This document shows positions 1,219 through 26,744 of a stretch of 43,194 bases of DNA, piece after piece; position 1 is the first letter of the stretch, and every line of letters begins with the position of its first letter. Both the position numbers and the translations under genes were made by a program. Origin of the DNA: Oerskovia enterophila (GTDB taxonomy: Bacteria; Actinomycetota; Actinomycetes; Actinomycetales; Cellulomonadaceae). The DNA is taken from the NCBI RefSeq assembly GCF_001692445.1, contig NZ_MAQA01000041.1, positions 1 to 43,194 of the forward strand. Reading direction: 5' to 3'. Under the pieces are notes generated by a model. That model was not told the DNA's origin, ran no database searches, and worked only from the letters and a program-made list of their open reading frames with translations.

Positions 1219-1301
1219 GCGCGAGTGGCGGAATGGCAGACGCGCTAGCTTCAGGTGCTAGTGTCCGAAAGGGCGTGGGGGTTCAAGTCCCCCCTCGCGC
1301 A
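1219..1301 (+). tRNA. tRNA-Leu (anticodon CAG)
   Basis: The 83-base gene folds as a class II tRNA. The acceptor stem GCGCGAG (1219-1225) pairs with CTCGCGC (1294-1300), with discriminator A at 1301 and no encoded CCA. The anticodon stem is CTAGC/GCTAG with loop TTCAGGT, so the anticodon is CAG (Leu, CUG codons). The T arm contains GGGGGTTCAAGTCCCCC, and the variable arm is long, as expected for leucine. A TAATCT hexamer at 1203-1208 is a plausible -10 element. A tRNA-Leu next to fhaA is also familiar from mycobacterial chromosomes. Confidence 0.97.
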
Positions 1302-1312
1302 CGTGATGTACG

Positions 1313-7404: not shown

Positions 7405-7509
7405 GCCGGGGGCGACGGCGCGCCGCGCCGGCGGTGGAGGTGCGCGGCGCCCGCGGTGACGGACGCGCTCGACCCGGGCTCCGCCGTCGGGCTCGCTGGG
7501 CATGAAGAG

Positions 7510-7570
7510 GCCCGCGGGCTGGTGGATCTCTCCACCCGTCGCGCTGGACGAGGGCGCGACACCCGCGGGC
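7510..7570. other. Compact three-way-junction RNA structure
   Basis: Three perfect stems use nearly every base: P1 GCCCGCGGG/CCCGCGGGC (7510-7518 with 7562-7570), P2 GGTGGA-TCTC-TCCACC (7521-7536) and P3 GTCGCGC/GCGCGAC (7538-7544 with 7554-7560). Only one or two bases join them. It can form on either strand. Read on the minus strand, P2 has a GAGA (GNRA) tetraloop and lies at the 3' end of a unit that starts near 7730. It may be a terminator, an attenuator or part of a small RNA. I do not recognise an RNA family. Confidence 0.6.
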
Positions 7571-7601
7571 TCCGGTGGTTGCTCGGTTCTCGCTGGTCGT
7601 G

Positions 7602-7619
7602 GGTGACCTGACGGTCACC
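7602..7619. other. Hairpin in the 7.5-7.7 kb RNA unit
   Basis: GGTGACC-TGAC-GGTCACC is a perfect 7-bp stem with a four-base loop, lying between the short ORF and the three-way junction. Together they make the segment 7510-7730 unusually structured for an intergenic region. Confidence 0.55.
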
Positions 7620-7664
7620 GGTCGGCCGCGGGTTCCTCGCAAGGTCCGTCGCTCGATGGCACGA

Positions 7665-7703
7665 CTAGCGTGCAACCACCTCATGTGTCCGAAGATTCTT
7701 CAC
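7665..7703 (-). CDS. Possible leader peptide or micro-ORF
   Basis: GTG (7703) to TAG (7665) encodes MKNLRTHEVVAR. It is preceded by AAAGGAGGTGGTCC (minus strand of 7709-7722), which can pair with the 16S rRNA tail over its whole length with one G-U pair. That is far stronger than any other ribosome site in the window. An in-frame ATG at 7727 would extend it to 20 residues. A leader peptide in front of an attenuator is the likeliest reading, but no downstream minus-strand gene is visible. Translation is inferred only from the ribosome site. Confidence 0.4.
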   Translation of the reverse strand: MKNLRTHEVVAR

Positions 7704-7736
7704 TTCGTGGACCACCTCCTTTCCCATGTGCCGACG

Positions 7737-10582: not shown

Positions 10583-11158
10583 GTGACGACACCGACCCCC
10601 GACGACGCCCCTCGTACCGCGACCCCCGACCCCTCCCGCCGGCCCTACCGCGTGATGACGGTCTGCACGGGCAACATCTGTCGCTCCCCCATGGCCGAGA
10701 TCGTGCTGCGCGACCGCTTCGAGGCTGCGGGCCTCGGCGGGAGGGTCGTGGTGGACTCGACGGGCATCAGCTCGGAGGAGCACGGCAACCCCGTGGACCG
10801 TCGCGCCCGGCGCGTCCTGGCCGAGCACGGGTACGACACGGGCGAGGGCCACCACGCCCGGCAGGTCCGCCCGAGCGACGTGGTCTCGCGCGACCTCGTG
10901 CTCCCCATGACCTCGCAGCACGCCCGCGCGCTGCGGCGCCTGCACGGCGACGGGAACGTGCGCATGTACCGGTCGTTCGACCCGGCGGCGCCCGTCGTCG
11001 CACCCGAGCGGGTCGAGCGCGACGAGCACCTGCTCGACATCGACGACCCCTGGTACGGGGGCATGCAGGACTTCGAGGACTGCCTGGCGCAGGTCGAGGC
11101 CGCGGCCGACGGGATCGTCGAGCACGTGCGTCAGGAGCTGGCCAGGCGTCAGGCCTGA
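10583..11158 (+). CDS. Low-molecular-weight protein-tyrosine phosphatase
   Basis: A 191-residue cytosolic phosphatase. The P-loop VCTGNICRSPMAE holds the catalytic Cys and Arg (CX5R, ~residues 28-34), and the general-acid region DIDDPWYGGMQDFEDC carries the DP motif. It dephosphorylates phosphotyrosine, often on polysaccharide-export kinases. The GTG start at 10583 gives a 22-residue N-terminal extension rich in Pro and Thr. It lies six bases after CACACT (10571-10576), so translation is probably leaderless; the GGAG between them is too close to serve as a ribosome site. The stop lies inside the tail of the convergent hydrolase gene (10-base overlap). No tyrosine kinase is adjacent. Confidence 0.93.
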   Translation: MTTPTPDDAPRTATPDPSRRPYRVMTVCTGNICRSPMAEIVLRDRFEAAGLGGRVVVDSTGISSEEHGNPVDRRARRVLAEHGYDTGEGHHARQVRPSDVVSRDLVLPMTSQHARALRRLHGDGNVRMYRSFDPAAPVVAPERVERDEHLLDIDDPWYGGMQDFEDCLAQVEAAADGIVEHVRQELARRQA

Positions 11159-12324
11159 GCGCGCGCGCCCGACCTGCCGAACCACCCGCGCACGGCGTCG
11201 CGCACCGCCCCGGCGGTGCGCCCGACCCACCCGGGCGCCCGGCCGTCCGGCGTCGGGTCCTCCTCGGGCGCGGGGGGACGCTCGGGCACGTAGCCCCGCA
11301 CCCACGTCGCGATGTCGTCGTACGCCACGGCCCGCACCGGCGGGGCCGAGAGGACGACGTCGTGCAGCGCCCCGTCGATCCGCACGAGCGTGACCTGGCT
11401 GCCCAGGTCGGTCGAGCGGCGCGCGATCCCGACGACGTCGAGCGCGGTGTCGCTGCGCATCATCTCGGGCGACCACGTGGGCAGCAGGGTGCTGCGCGCC
11501 GAGAGCAGCACGAGCACGGGGACCGTGATCCCGAGGCCGCGCTCGACCGTCCCCTGCCCGCGCAGGATCGCGGTCAGCCAGGCCGGGTGCGTCGGGAACC
11601 CGCGCACGGGGCGCCACGCGAGGTCGTAGTCCCACTCGCCGTCGAGCGTGCGGGACACCGAGCGCGTGTAGAAGCCGAGGTCGACCTGGGGCAGCGGCGC
11701 TCGCGGGTCGAGGCGCGCCTGGAGCTCGAGCGCGGGCGCGAGGACCTTGCGCCCGATCCCCCGGGCCTGGAACTCGAGCCACGGGCTGTTGAGCACGAGC
11801 GCGGCGACGCGGTCCTGGTGGCGCGCGGTCCACAGGCTCATGGTCAGGCCTCCCGTCGAGTGCGCCATGAGGACCAGGCTGCGCTCGTGCTTGGGGCGGT
11901 CCGCGGTCAGGATGCCGTGGCCCATGGTGGTGAGCGCGGCCTCGATGTCCTCGTCGTACGTCGCGAGGTCGGTCACGAACCCGGGGGTCTGCCCCGGGCG
12001 GAGGCTGCGCCCGTACTTGCGCAGGTCGAGCGCGAAGAAGCGTGCGCCGCGCGCCTCCCAGAAGTCCGCGAGCTCGGTCTGGAAGAAGTAGTCGGACCAC
12101 CCGTGCACGTACAGGACGTCGATCCCGCGGTCGGCGACCAGCGGGTCGCGGGACTCCCGGGCGTCGGCCGCGGAGCCGCCGCCCGCCCGACGGCGTCGCA
12201 CGAGCGTCGCGACCACCTCGCCCTCGTCGTCGGGCGTGAGGGGCAGGGTCAGCTGCTCGAACCCGTCGAGCACGTCCGGCTGCCACCTCGGGGTCTCGGC
12301 GGGTCGGGCGGTGGGTTCGGGCAT
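11149..12324 (-). CDS. Alpha/beta hydrolase (serine lipase-like)
   Basis: A 391-residue protein. Strand and oxyanion region IDVLYVHGWSDYFFQTELADF, nucleophile elbow VLMAHSTGGLTMSLW (Ser in AHSTGG), and the late His in IDGALHDVVLSAP make a full Ser-Asp-His triad plausible, with the acid in VLVLLSARSTLLPTW or nearby. The closest style is the lysophospholipase / monoacylglycerol lipase group. The C-terminal 50 residues are Pro-rich and basic. The start ATG follows TACCCT by six bases (leaderless). There is no signal peptide, so it is cytosolic. Substrate unknown. It overlaps the phosphatase gene tail to tail. Confidence 0.87.
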   Translation of the reverse strand: MPEPTARPAETPRWQPDVLDGFEQLTLPLTPDDEGEVVATLVRRRRAGGGSAADARESRDPLVADRGIDVLYVHGWSDYFFQTELADFWEARGARFFALDLRKYGRSLRPGQTPGFVTDLATYDEDIEAALTTMGHGILTADRPKHERSLVLMAHSTGGLTMSLWTARHQDRVAALVLNSPWLEFQARGIGRKVLAPALELQARLDPRAPLPQVDLGFYTRSVSRTLDGEWDYDLAWRPVRGFPTHPAWLTAILRGQGTVERGLGITVPVLVLLSARSTLLPTWSPEMMRSDTALDVVGIARRSTDLGSQVTLVRIDGALHDVVLSAPPVRAVAYDDIATWVRGYVPERPPAPEEDPTPDGRAPGWVGRTAGAVRDAVRGWFGRSGARAQA

Positions 12325-13283: not shown

Positions 13284-15569
13284 ATGACACAGAGCACTGA
13301 CGAAGGACTGCTCGGACCGGCCGAGGCGATCGACCTCGAGAACTGCGCCCGGGAACCCATCCACATCCCGGGCCGGATCCAACCGCGCGGGGTCCTGCTG
13401 GTGGTCCGCGAGGGTGACGGCCGGGTGGTGCAGTGCTCCACGAACGTGCGCGACGTCCTGGGGCTCGCGCCGCAGGACGTGATCGGTGCCGGGCTGACCG
13501 AGGTCCTCGGCCCCCAGGACGCCACCAGGCTGCTCGACCATGCCGCGCGGCACCAGGACCTGGCCCCCCACAACCCGGTCGAGATCCGCACGGGGCACGG
13601 GCGCACGGTCGAGACCGACGCGATCCTGCACCGCCCGCCGCTCCCGGACGGCGCCGAGCCCGTCGTCGTGATCGAGCTCGAGCAGGCCGTCGTGCGGCCG
13701 CTGAGCTTCCCCAACACGTACCAGGCCGTGCGCACGGCGCTCGCGGACCTCGACCGGGCGTCGACGCTCGACGCGCTGTTCACGACGGCGGCCGAGCACG
13801 TGCGCCGCCTGACGGGCTTCGACCGCGTGATGATCTACCGGTTCGACGCCGACCACAACGGCGAGGTCGTCGCCGAGGCCAAGCGAGAGGACCTCAACTC
13901 GTTCTACGGGCTGCACTACCCCGCGACGGACATCCCCCGCCAGGCCCGGGCGCTGTACGAGAAGAACTGGATCCGGCTGATCGACGACGTGGACTACGTC
14001 CCGAGCGACGTCGTCCCCACGGCCCTCCCGACGACGGGCGAACCGCTCGACCTCACGTACTCGACCCTGCGCAGCGTCTCCCCCATCCATCTCGAGTACC
14101 TGCGGAACATGGGCGTGGGAGCCTCGATGTCGATCTCGCTGCTGCGCGACGGGAGGCTGTGGGGCCTCATCGCGTGCCACCACTACTCCGGCCCGCACCA
14201 TCCGTCCTACGCCGTGCGGGCCGCGGCGGAGTTCCTGGGGTCGGCGCTCTCGGTGCTGCTCGTGGCACAGAGCGAGGAGGACCGGCTCGTCGCGTCGCGG
14301 GCCTCGTCGAGGCTGCTCGCCGGGCTCGTCGCCGACAGCCGCGACGAGGACACCTCGCTCGTCGAGGCCATGACGGCCGACGGGCGTCTCCTCGACCTCG
14401 TGGACGCCGACGGCGTCGTCGTGCTCGCCGAGGGGCGTTCGGCGTCGCTCGGACGGGTACCCGAGGAGGAGGGCGTCGCGCTGCTCGTCGGGTGGCTCAC
14501 GGGCCGGCTCGCCGAGACCGCCGACGAGGTGGTGGCGGTCGACTCGCTGCGCGTCGCGGCCCCCGAGATCGCCGACCTGCTGCCCGACGTCGCGGGCGTC
14601 CTGGGCGTGCTCCTGAGCGACGGGCAGGCCGTGGTCTGGCTCCGGGACGAGGTGCTGCGCAGCGTCGACTGGGGCGGCGACCCCCACAACAAGGCCATCG
14701 CGCTGAGCGAGGGCGACACGGTCCGGCTCAGCCCCCGCAGGTCGTTCGACCGGTGGCGCGAGGTCGTCAGCGGCCACAGCGAACCGTGGGCCGAGGACGC
14801 GGTCGAGAGCGCGGGCGCCCTGCGCAGCCACCTGGTCGAGGCGCTCTACCTCCGTGGACGACGGGACGTGCGGGCCGCGGAGGCGCTCCAGCGCAGCCTG
14901 CTCCCCGCGACGCTGCCCGACGTGCCGGGCTGGGACGTGACCGCGCGCTACGAGCCGGCCGGCGGCGGGTTCGTCGGCGGGGACTGGTACGACGCGTTGC
15001 TGCTGCCCTCGGGGGCGCTCGCGCTCGTCGTCGGCGACGTCACGGGCCACGGGCTCCAGGCCGCCGCCTCGATGGGGCAGATCCGCAACACGCTGCGCGC
15101 AGCGCTCGTGCGCGCAGGGACCGCGCAAGGGGCCGTCGAGCAGCTCGCCGAGACGGTGCAGTGGACCATGCCCGGGCAGATCGCGACGCTCGTGGTCGCG
15201 GTCGTGGACCTCGAGACCGGCACGGTCGAGTACGTCACGGCCGGGCACCCGCCGCCCTTCTTCCTGGTCCCGGGCGAGGGCGTCGTCTGGGGGCGGCTGC
15301 TGGGCAGCCCGCCGCTCGGGCTGCCCAGCCAGGGCGTCGTCGCCGGGACCACCACGATCGGACCCGGAGGTGCGCTCGTGCTCTACAGCGACGGGCTCTT
15401 CGAACGTCGCGACGAGTCCCTCAAGGCCGGGCTGCGGCGGCTCGCGGGGACGTTCGCCGAGCACGTGGGCGACGTCGACGCGGTGCTGCGCTCGACCCGG
15501 GACCCCGAGTCCGAGGACGACGCGACCCTGCTGGTGCTCCGCCGTCGGGCCCGGGACGCGCGCGGCTGA
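13284..15569 (+). CDS. Bacteriophytochrome with SpoIIE/PP2C phosphatase output
   Basis: A 761-residue soluble light sensor. PAS (residues ~15-130) holds the biliverdin-binding Cys21 in ENCAREPIHIPGRIQPRG, the position used by bacteriophytochromes. GAF (~145-315) carries LTGFDRVMIYRFDADHNGEV and the chromophore-pocket motif YPATDIPRQARALY. PHY (~330-510) carries the tongue motif around SPRRSFDRWREVV and SEPW. A helical linker leads to a PP2C/SpoIIE domain (~545-755) with the metal-binding acids in GGDWYDA, VGDVTGHG, LYSDGLFE and EDDATLLVL. All four are present, so an active Mn-dependent Ser/Thr phosphatase is expected. Homologous cores switch between red- and far-red-absorbing states and usually drive a histidine kinase; here the output is the RsbU type. 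The kinase and STAS partners lie just downstream on the other strand. No heme oxygenase for biliverdin is in the window. Confidence 0.95.
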   Translation: MTQSTDEGLLGPAEAIDLENCAREPIHIPGRIQPRGVLLVVREGDGRVVQCSTNVRDVLGLAPQDVIGAGLTEVLGPQDATRLLDHAARHQDLAPHNPVEIRTGHGRTVETDAILHRPPLPDGAEPVVVIELEQAVVRPLSFPNTYQAVRTALADLDRASTLDALFTTAAEHVRRLTGFDRVMIYRFDADHNGEVVAEAKREDLNSFYGLHYPATDIPRQARALYEKNWIRLIDDVDYVPSDVVPTALPTTGEPLDLTYSTLRSVSPIHLEYLRNMGVGASMSISLLRDGRLWGLIACHHYSGPHHPSYAVRAAAEFLGSALSVLLVAQSEEDRLVASRASSRLLAGLVADSRDEDTSLVEAMTADGRLLDLVDADGVVVLAEGRSASLGRVPEEEGVALLVGWLTGRLAETADEVVAVDSLRVAAPEIADLLPDVAGVLGVLLSDGQAVVWLRDEVLRSVDWGGDPHNKAIALSEGDTVRLSPRRSFDRWREVVSGHSEPWAEDAVESAGALRSHLVEALYLRGRRDVRAAEALQRSLLPATLPDVPGWDVTARYEPAGGGFVGGDWYDALLLPSGALALVVGDVTGHGLQAAASMGQIRNTLRAALVRAGTAQGAVEQLAETVQWTMPGQIATLVVAVVDLETGTVEYVTAGHPPPFFLVPGEGVVWGRLLGSPPLGLPSQGVVAGTTTIGPGGALVLYSDGLFERRDESLKAGLRRLAGTFAEHVGDVDAVLRSTRDPESEDDATLLVLRRRARDARG

Positions 15570-15616
15570 CGCACTCCTCGCGCGCCGGCTGCGCCTAGCG
15601 TGCCGGCTGCGCCGGC

Positions 15617-15634
15617 CGTGCCCCCGAGGGCACG
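15617..15634. terminator. Hairpin between convergent genes
   Basis: CGTGCCC-CCGA-GGGCACG forms a perfect 7-bp stem in the 78-base gap between the phytochrome stop and the stop of the RsbW-like gene. There is no T run; it may end both transcripts. Confidence 0.5.
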
Positions 15635-15647
15635 CGCGCTCCGCCGG

Positions 15648-16118
15648 TCAGGGCGCCGCCGCTGCCGGCACGGCCGGCGACGCGGCGTCCCGTGCTGCGC
15701 CGAGGCGCGCCCAGACGTGCTTGCCCTCGGCGACGAACCAGCCCACGTCGAGCGCGAGCCGCTGCGCCAGGACGAGCCCGAACCCGCCGTCGCCCGGGAG
15801 TCGCGGGGCGGCCACCACGGGGGCTCGGCTCGTGTCCTGGTCGATCACGTCGACGATGTACTCCTCGCCGTCGGTGAGGAGCTGGACGGTCGTCGGCGGA
15901 CGTCCGTGCCGCAGCGCGTTCGTGGCGAGCTCGCTCGCGACCAGGACGATCTTCTCCGAGACCTCGGCCATCGCACCGTCGGGGGCCAGCGGACGCCCTG
16001 TCAGCTCCTGGTGCAGCGACGTGCGCAGGATCGAGAGCTCGTCGAGCGAGTCGAGCTGCCAGACGCGGACCACGTGGAAGGTCTCGGGCGGACGGGACGA
16101 GGGGATCGTGATGTCCAT
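15648..16118 (-). CDS. RsbW-like anti-sigma factor kinase (HATPase_c)
   Basis: A 156-residue GHKL ATPase. The N-box is SEKIVLVASELATNALRHGRPP (~55-75), the D-box DVIDQDTSRAPVV, and the G-box GDGGFGLVLAQRLALDVGW. No histidine phospho-acceptor domain is present, as in RsbW/SpoIIAB. Such proteins hold a sigma factor or another client and phosphorylate a STAS antagonist on Ser. GGAGGA lies before the ATG at 16118. It follows the STAS gene by 97 bases on the same strand. The Ala/Pro tail after residue 140 is probably disordered. No sigma gene is in the window, so the client is unknown. Confidence 0.93.
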   Translation of the reverse strand: MDITIPSSRPPETFHVVRVWQLDSLDELSILRTSLHQELTGRPLAPDGAMAEVSEKIVLVASELATNALRHGRPPTTVQLLTDGEEYIVDVIDQDTSRAPVVAAPRLPGDGGFGLVLAQRLALDVGWFVAEGKHVWARLGAARDAASPAVPAAAAP

Positions 16119-16215
16119 GGGCGTTCCTCCGTGGGTTCACAGCGTGCGTGCGTTCGTGCGGGGTGTGCGGGTGCGACGCCGTGGCCGGGGGTGGTGGCCC
16201 GTGGCGTCGGGACGG

Positions 16216-16527
16216 TCAGTCGACGAGAGTGAACTGCGAGATGACGCCGCTGATCTCCAGCAGGTCCCGGATGCGATCCGGTACCCCGACCAGGACGGGA
16301 GGTTCGCCACCTCCGAGCACCGAGAGGTACAGCAGGCGCAGACCCCCCGAGTCCATGAAGGTGACCTCGGTCAGGTCGATCGTGACGGGACCCTCCGCGC
16401 GCTGGACCGAGCGGGCGAGGTCGCCCTCGGAGCGGTCCTGGACCGCGGCGTCGACCTCTCCCCACATGGTCCACCGAGGACCGGAGTCGTCGATACGGAC
16501 ACCGCCTTGCATCGTCTGATCGGGCAC
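16216..16527 (-). CDS. RsbV-like anti-sigma factor antagonist (STAS domain)
   Basis: A 103-residue single STAS domain. The phosphorylation site lies in DLTEVTFMDSGGLRLLYLS: Ser after Asp, followed by GGL, matching SpoIIAA/RsbV. The N-terminal strand is GPRWTMWGEVDAA. I chose GTG at 16527 because GAGAGG sits 6-7 bases upstream; the ATG at 16512 has no ribosome site. In the partner switch the unphosphorylated form binds the RsbW-like kinase and frees its client; the phosphatase encoded at 13284-15569 would regenerate it. It is the first gene of the minus-strand pair. Confidence 0.93.
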   Translation of the reverse strand: MPDQTMQGGVRIDDSGPRWTMWGEVDAAVQDRSEGDLARSVQRAEGPVTIDLTEVTFMDSGGLRLLYLSVLGGGEPPVLVGVPDRIRDLLEISGVISQFTLVD

Positions 16528-23496: not shown

Positions 23497-23540
23497 GCTG
23501 GGACCCGTACGACCACAACCACATACTGCTGCTCGAACCA

Positions 23541-23787
23541 CTGCGGGAGAGCCCGGCCACCTCAGGGTGAGGTCGGCGCCGAAGGAGCAACTCCTCCCCG
23601 AGAAACTCTCAGGCCGACGTACCGCGGTGGCGAGGCAACTCTGGAAAGCGGTGACTCCACCTCCCCTCTCGGGTGGGAGAGTCCCCTACCGACGGTGCAA
23701 GCCGGCGCGCCCCGGGTCCGCGAGGACCATGGCGGACCGGCAAAACTCTCAGGTCGACGCTGCGCGTCCGATGACAGAGCGGGGAGG
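23541..23787 (+). promoter_or_regulatory. Tandem glycine riboswitch
   Basis: Aptamer 1 carries GCGGGAGAGCC (23543 on), GCCGAAGGAGCAACTCC (23578-23594), GAGAAACTCTCAGG (23600-23613) and CTCTGGAAAGC (23639-23649). Aptamer 2 carries GGTGGGAGAGTCCC (23672 on), ACCGACGGTGCAAGCC (23688-23703), CAAAACTCTCAGG (23741-23753) and GATGACAGAGCGGGG (23770-23784). These are the conserved glycine-aptamer blocks. A CATACT hexamer at 23523-23528 would start the RNA near 23535. The gcvP start is 56 bases downstream, so glycine should turn on glycine cleavage. Confidence 0.95.

Positions 23788-23843: not shown

Positions 23844-26744
<2,901 letters not shown>

Follow-up and report, generated by a model that had tools for sequence, protein, structure and literature searches.

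A phytochrome–phosphatase fusion facing a kinase–STAS gene pair

In a 43,194-nucleotide stretch of DNA from Oerskovia enterophila (the whole of which we call the window), three neighbouring genes supply all the components of a partner switch and probably function as such a switch. The first encodes a bacteriophytochrome photosensory core joined to a SpoIIE/PPM phosphatase, and the other two, on the minus strand, encode a stand-alone serine kinase and an RsbV-like STAS protein (Table 1). All three genes had been proposed in a preliminary description made from the sequence alone, and translations and Pfam searches find them where it had placed them. The minus-strand pair, read as the STAS gene (16512 or 16527 to 16216) followed by the kinase gene (16118 to 15648), is convergent to the fusion and ends 78 bases past the fusion's stop codon. 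The start of the STAS gene is uncertain, being either the ATG at 16512 or the GTG at 16527 that the preliminary description had chosen; the mechanical start of its open reading frame is 16641.

Table 1. Coordinates, strand and basis of the features of the three-gene set.
Feature	Position in window	Strand	Basis
Bacteriophytochrome (PAS-GAF-PHY)–SpoIIE/PPM phosphatase fusion, 761 amino acids	13284..15569	+	Translation; Pfam PAS_2, GAF, PHY, SpoIIE; AlphaFold model, mean predicted local distance difference test (pLDDT) score 86.8
Cys21 codon, predicted biliverdin-binding cysteine	13344..13346	+	NCAREPIHIPG motif, invariant in 23/23 aligned fusions
PHY domain, residues 347-521	14322..14846	+	Pfam PF00360, 139.8 bits
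Continuous helix from PHY to phosphatase, residues 504-539	14793..14900	+	Predicted model; constant 81-residue PRxSF-to-GGDW spacing
SpoIIE/PPM phosphatase domain, residues 576-755; metal-site acids D567, D585, D703, D746	15009..15548	+	Pfam PF07228, 134.9 bits; PDB matches; invariant acids
Stand-alone RsbW/SpoIIAB-type serine kinase, 156 amino acids	15648..16118	-	HATPase_c_2; predicted fold
STAS (RsbV-like) protein with phospho-Ser position, about 98 amino acids	16216..16512 (start maybe 16527)	-	STAS/STAS_2; SpoIIAA alignment

Relatives were compared in two samples. Among actinobacteria, 80 named loci were kept of at least 592 confirmed ones; 45 of these extend into the phosphatase and 35 match the sensor part only, and 44 of the 45 were mapped, with L045, on a short contig, left out. 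Within the window's family, 200 genomes were drawn evenly, 184 of them with a completeness of 90% or more and a contamination of 5% or less.

Sensor, phosphatase and the junction between them

The PAS_2, GAF and PHY domains of the fusion occur in PAS-GAF-PHY order, each above its Pfam cut-off, and residues 11-523 match BphP of PDB 6bap (E 1.7e-107). In an alignment of 23 fusions (that of the window and 22 chosen from the 44 mapped loci), Cys21, the DIP motif (D216-P218), His269 and the PRxSF motif (P484, R485, S487, F488) are invariant in every row. We presume that these residues have the roles of the N-terminal Cys, the DIP motif, the GAF His and the PHY-tongue PRxSF of known bacteriophytochromes. 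The complete phytochrome core with its biliverdin Cys, DIP and PRxSF motifs that had been claimed for this protein is thus borne out, and judged by its residues the window's sensor looks intact.

The preliminary description had also reported that no heme oxygenase is present. This is correct for the window and wrong for the genome, which encodes a heme oxygenase elsewhere (PF01126, 212 bits, G000:C8:2621-3223), so that the question of the biliverdin source is answered. The genes that follow it include one that resembles, by eye, the ATPase of an ATP-binding cassette (ABC) transporter. In the family sample, a heme oxygenase is found (E<=1e-15, a threshold that may miss distant ones) in 95 of the 105 genomes that have the fusion and in 48 of the 95 that do not. 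Elsewhere among the actinobacteria, the fusion itself has heme-oxygenase-like neighbours, those of 15 of the 44 loci forming one cluster and those of 3 another; a Pfam check covered three genes from the first cluster and one from the second, and some of these neighbours score just 25-32 bits.

The SpoIIE domain of the fusion is likewise above its Pfam cut-off and matches the structures of Rv1364c (PDB 3ke6, E 2.1e-27) and SpoIIE (3t91). Its residues D567, D585, D703 and D746 align with acids of the solved SpoIIE, the first of them just upstream of the stretch matched by Pfam, and D567, D570, D585, D703, D745 and D746 are invariant in 23/23 fusions. The protein therefore has a SpoIIE-type phosphatase domain with the complete set of metal-binding acids, as had been proposed.

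The distance between the two halves is constant. Counted from the P of PRxSF, the first G of GGDW lies 81 residues on in 61/61 proteins that pass a motif filter and, under a looser filter, in 62/62 measurable ones (L161 is without the PRxSF letters and L153 fails the filter), counts in which near-copies are included. When all 105 family fusions are aligned, the spacing is 81 in 104 rows, again including near-copies, and the remaining protein (G164) is cut off at a contig end. Within the photosensory core, by contrast, spacing varies over 259-279 residues in 55 of 56 proteins measured, the other one being a motif mismatch. Residues 489-534 are gap-free in 23/23 rows despite a mean pairwise identity of 42%, and the AlphaFold model has an unbroken helix across the junction. 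Such a fixed-length helical junction fits, by analogy, the coiled-coil-linker activation described for RsbU-type phosphatases in passages of PMC12143880.

The kinase and the STAS protein

The kinase gene encodes an HATPase_c_2 domain above cut-off (34.9 versus 27.4 bits), and Pfam finds no dimerisation or His-acceptor domain in it. A structure search with its predicted model shows the RsbW/SpoIIAB fold; the sequence, alone or as an 8-row profile, matched nothing meaningful in the PDB, and against the NCBIfam RsbA anti-sigma model it scores 41.5 bits, far under the cut-off of 210. Residues E63, N67 and D93 and the sequence GGFG are invariant in 8/8 aligned kinases, and we take them to be the Glu and Asn of the N-box, the Asp of the G1-box and the G2-box. 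These results agree with the earlier proposal of an HATPase kinase without a His-acceptor.

For the STAS protein, matches to STAS and STAS_2 exceed the Pfam cut-offs, and that to TIGR00377 (38.1 bits) is under its cut-off of 53.45. In an alignment with SpoIIAA (1th8_B), the Ser of its FMDSGGL sequence falls on the first of the two Ser residues of FMDSSGL, a match that is weak alone (E 0.39), and the D-S motif is invariant in 7/7 aligned neighbours. A STAS protein with a phosphorylatable Ser position, as predicted, is thus present. Elsewhere in the same genome (L187, 4579-7914, G000:C1) there is a second partner-switch cluster, in which a 796-amino-acid PP2C–kinase fusion is encoded between two STAS genes.

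Conservation of the three-gene set

The preliminary description had suggested a search for the same three-gene neighbourhood in other actinobacteria, and it is indeed found there. Kinase and STAS genes are both called in the flanks of 12 of the 44 mapped loci (L002-L007, L011, L015, L016, L019, L038 and L043, the last with its STAS gene 5.6 kb beyond the fusion), to which matches at the level of open reading frames would add L040 and L041. In the family sample, the fusion occurs in 105 and the kinase profile in 111 of the 200 genomes; with relatedness ignored, 91 genomes have both, 14 the fusion alone, 20 the kinase alone and 75 neither. Among the 105 genomes with the fusion, the kinase gene lies less than 1 kb from it in at least 41, less than 2.5 kb in at least 43 and less than 12 kb in at least 56, where rough arithmetic gives at most about 0.7 expected by chance within 1 kb. 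The 41 closest pairs comprise 35 convergent, 5 codirectional downstream and 1 codirectional upstream arrangements. Of 20 family stretches chosen for inspection, 18 have the fusion and the kinase within about 1.2 kb, and a STAS gene adjoins in all 18. The grouping of the three genes is beyond chance.

The window's arrangement is kept in genera g1 (7/7) and g8 (17/17). In genus g11 (L151, L152), the STAS, kinase and fusion genes are codirectional, with a few bases shared between the last two if the starts are those of our own gene caller. That the linkage persists through such re-arrangement among relatives is what one would expect of a single functional unit. In a tree of 50 kinase rows, the g11 kinases and 16 of the 20 convergent kinases form one group (99/95) together with one unlinked row. 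The other half of the tree includes a distinct branch made up of the kinases of L154 and the window's genus, and the g20-type kinases group with an unlinked copy. Since linked kinases fall in separate branches, the linkage may have arisen more than once. Two other copies of the kinase (L172, L174) lie near other PP2C genes, which fits a role in partner switching. Taken together, the kinase and the STAS protein are very probably working partners of the fusion phosphatase.

At 8.2-9.3 kb in L015 and L016, both from Mycobacterium, a different STAS and HATPase_c_2 pair is convergent to the same kind of fusion, which may reflect an independent recruitment of the set.

A clade of fusions without the light sites

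In the alignment of all 105 family fusions, 97 keep Cys21, His269, P484 and F488, and one more (G175) is unreadable at Cys21. The other seven (G032, G114, G133, G170, G174, G185 and G188; the clade's loci are L198, L200, L196, L203, L277, L153 and L161) have lost all four sites, the Cys21 position of G133 falling in a gap. These seven keep the phosphatase acids wherever they can be read (G185 is cut off after the first), and their spacing is still 81. In a tree of 59 of the 105 fusions, made by a quick method with the scored sites left out, they group together in a single clade with support 100, which is nested among the light-type fusions and adjoins the Cellulosimicrobium-like genus g8. Heme oxygenase is undetected in 6 of the 7 genomes compared with 4 of the 98 others; because the clade represents one event, Fisher's p of 9e-7 is not to be taken at face value. 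The kinase gene stands beside the fusion in at least G032, G174 and G188, and a STAS gene does so too in G032 and G174. The simplest reading is a branch whose sensor went blind and whose switch runs on another input.

Search for the client

The preliminary description had found no client sigma gene and had left the client as a sigma factor or another protein. Its negative stands for the window. A sigma client of SigB/F/G type, one of the defining features of a SigB/F module, was looked for in the whole genome as well, and none is above the TIGR02980 cut-off of 234.35; the best score, 133.4 bits, belongs to an RpoD-like frame. Sigma genes as such are nevertheless present: the genome has 18 region-2 matches above cut-off, namely the one RpoD-like frame (C7) and 17 others that we took as extracytoplasmic-function (ECF) type, as their matches to the TIGR02980 model are weak or altogether lacking. 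In the family sample, 0 of the 200 genomes have a SigB/F/G-type sigma above cut-off; three reach E<=1e-50, all of genus g15 and all without the fusion. As a positive control, 17 of the 30 genomes of the named fusion loci have such a sigma above cut-off. The other 13 are ten genomes of Cellulomonas, Cellulosimicrobium and Isoptericola together with Georgenia, Oceanitalea and Aeromicrobium, the last just short at 224 bits. Given these outcomes, a SigB/F/G-type client is unlikely in the window's family, judging from sequence matches, and a SigF-type client is possible in mycobacteria and Geodermatophilaceae; other clients are still candidates.

Two gene associations were tried as leads and rejected. 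As a possible output, a predicted acyltransferase gene (PF01553) was weighed that overlaps the fusion at its 3′ end, but this is seen only in L023 (8235-8834) and L160 (5880-6479). As a possible client, the Cellulosimicrobium group offers a sigma gene that lies upstream of the fusion with a YCII-domain neighbour; the window's trio has no such pair beside it. Nor did a client emerge from the other partner-switch genes that this genome carries.

Proposed mechanism and alternatives

Our favoured interpretation, which we hold to be likely, is a red/far-red-gated partner switch that acts on the phosphorylation of the STAS protein and whose client is something other than a SigB/F/G-type sigma, since the genome yielded no such factor and the family none above cut-off. 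We infer light control with a set direction, an active kinase, cognate pairing of the three proteins and an exchange of partners, which could operate as follows. Biliverdin bound at Cys21 would allow the PAS-GAF-PHY core to photoswitch, and the change would travel along the helical spine of fixed length (residues 504-539) and set the activity of the SpoIIE phosphatase. The conserved Ser of the STAS protein would be phosphorylated by the RsbW-type kinase encoded opposite, and the fusion phosphatase would remove the phosphate in one light state. Unphosphorylated STAS would then bind the kinase, by which the client would be released. This client could be the primary sigma, as reported for Chlamydia, an ECF-type sigma or a non-sigma protein.

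Several observations weigh against this interpretation. The usual glycines after the G1-box Asp (D93) are missing in 8/8 kinases, which makes catalysis uncertain. Kinase and STAS genes occur together in the fetched flanks of only 12 of the 44 mapped actinobacterial loci; 14 of the 105 family genomes with the fusion have no such kinase at the threshold used, genus g21, with 44 of the 105 fusions, has none within 2.5 kb, and the tests of co-occurrence ignore relatedness. In the blind clade, at least G032 and G174 still have both the kinase gene and the STAS gene next to the fusion, which means that an input other than light can drive the switch. Finally, no client gene recurs in the 44 loci and the window, in the 20 family stretches or in 21 loci around other kinase copies (20 fetched, and L166).

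The alternatives differ mostly in the client. One, which we regard as a serious though tentative possibility, keeps the same switch and gives the free STAS protein or the kinase a different target, either an enzyme or some other regulator, in the manner of the Sia and Hsb systems of Pseudomonas; HsbA is described as binding FlgM in PMC6482189. However, neither the surroundings of the trio nor the 21 loci with other kinase copies show a recurring candidate. An ECF-type sigma encoded elsewhere would be a less probable client. The 17 further region-2 matches of the genome offer candidates, and in six Cellulosimicrobium-group loci a sigma gene and its YCII-domain neighbour (confirmed with Pfam in L002 only) lie about 1.6 kb upstream of the fusion, but this pair does not stand by the window's trio and looks like genus-level synteny. 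We also know of no ECF sigma that is held by a GHKL kinase, which counts against such a client. Somewhat less probable again, the client would be the one RpoD-type sigma, held by the kinase, and light would throttle housekeeping transcription by way of the STAS protein. The lack of a SigB/F/G-type sigma above cut-off in the genome and in all 200 family genomes, and the single RpoD-like frame of the sigma inventory, speak for this idea; its precedent is the interaction of Chlamydia RsbW with the primary sigma, sigma66, given in PMC4552016, from which the case for the present kinase is argued by analogy.

It is improbable that the three genes are neighbours without joint work, with the phosphatase serving other STAS proteins and the kinase–STAS pair belonging to another pathway. 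The genome does hold ten further STAS matches (one under cut-off) and four further SpoIIE proteins, and some fusions are without an adjacent kinase, but a linkage seen in at least 41 of 105 genomes against less than one expected, and kept through re-arrangement and in codirectional, overlapping gene sets, argues otherwise. That the window's sensor is degenerate and senses something besides light is very improbable: such fusions exist in the clade of 7 of 105 described above, but the window's protein lies outside that clade and keeps Cys21, DIP, His269 and PRxSF, and its genome encodes a heme oxygenase.

For the family as a whole, we give about even chances to a light-gated switch that would control, instead of a SigB/F/G-type alternative sigma, either the primary sigma or a non-sigma effector, and of which one branch, with its light sites lost and heme oxygenase undetected, would have gone blind and been re-wired while keeping the phosphatase and the helix.

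Neighbouring genes and other features of the window

Upstream of the fusion are a gene for a protein without a Pfam match and one for an alpha/beta hydrolase (11149-12324, on the opposite strand and one gene away from the fusion), and downstream of the set is an aminotransferase gene. The hydrolase was considered as a partner like that of the RsbQ–RsbP energy sensor, in which such a gene stands beside the one for the sensor–PPM protein, and set aside, as it is not kept by the fusion in the 44 mapped loci, where it clusters solely with a truncated gene of L011 that lies 5.6 kb away from the fusion; its homology to RsbQ itself was not compared. The window also contains, at 7502-7729 on the minus strand, a match to the actinobacterial small RNA Ms_IGR-5 (Rfam RF02471, 65.8 bits), presumably Ms1, which binds core RNA polymerase. 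An ordinary glycine riboswitch (RF00504, 65.8 bits; 23534-23634, plus strand) precedes a gene at 23844 that by eye resembles glycine dehydrogenase, and a tRNA-Leu gene (anticodon cag; 1219-1302, plus strand) lies close to the start of the window.

Relation to known systems

Partner switches are the textbook bacterial link from stress to alternative sigma factors. With the RsbU/RsbV/RsbW and SpoIIE/SpoIIAA/SpoIIAB systems, the present set shares a PPM phosphatase, a STAS protein with a conserved Ser, a GHKL serine kinase of the same fold and linked genes; it differs from them in its phytochrome sensor and in the lack of a SigB/F/G-type sigma above cut-off in the genome and the 200 family genomes. 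Rv1364c of Mycobacterium tuberculosis (PDB 3ke6) combines phosphatase and kinase in one chain with another sensor, whereas the present set has a phytochrome as its sensor and encodes the kinase and the STAS protein in genes of their own. The Rsb network of Chlamydia trachomatis is also a partner switch, with a kinase that binds the primary sigma, and the abstract of PMC4552016, which describes it, names no phytochrome.

The phytochrome–phosphatase fusion as such is not new: bacteriophytochromes with SpoIIE/PPM output, which have the same sensor–effector architecture, are named as one of several output types in the legend to Fig. 2 of PMC9587094. That study is itself on diguanylate cyclases, and its passages on these proteins mention no kinase–STAS neighbourhood. 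In PadC, one of the phytochrome-activated diguanylate cyclases, a PAS-GAF-PHY core also drives an enzyme through a length-sensitive helical linker; according to passages of PMC9587094 several linker lengths occur there, whereas the effector here is a phosphatase and a single spacing is found. In the open-licence literature, we found no report of the kinase–STAS set beside a phytochrome, of its conservation, of the blind clade or of the missing SigB/F sigma.

The constant 81-residue coupling, together with a naturally blind clade, makes these proteins well suited to the study of phosphatase control by a phytochrome, and the fusion could serve as a red-light-controlled phosphatase tool. For the family, the set is a compact one with phytochrome input, kept where no SigB/F/G-type sigma is found above cut-off in 200 genomes, and the identity of its client would reveal what else partner switches control.

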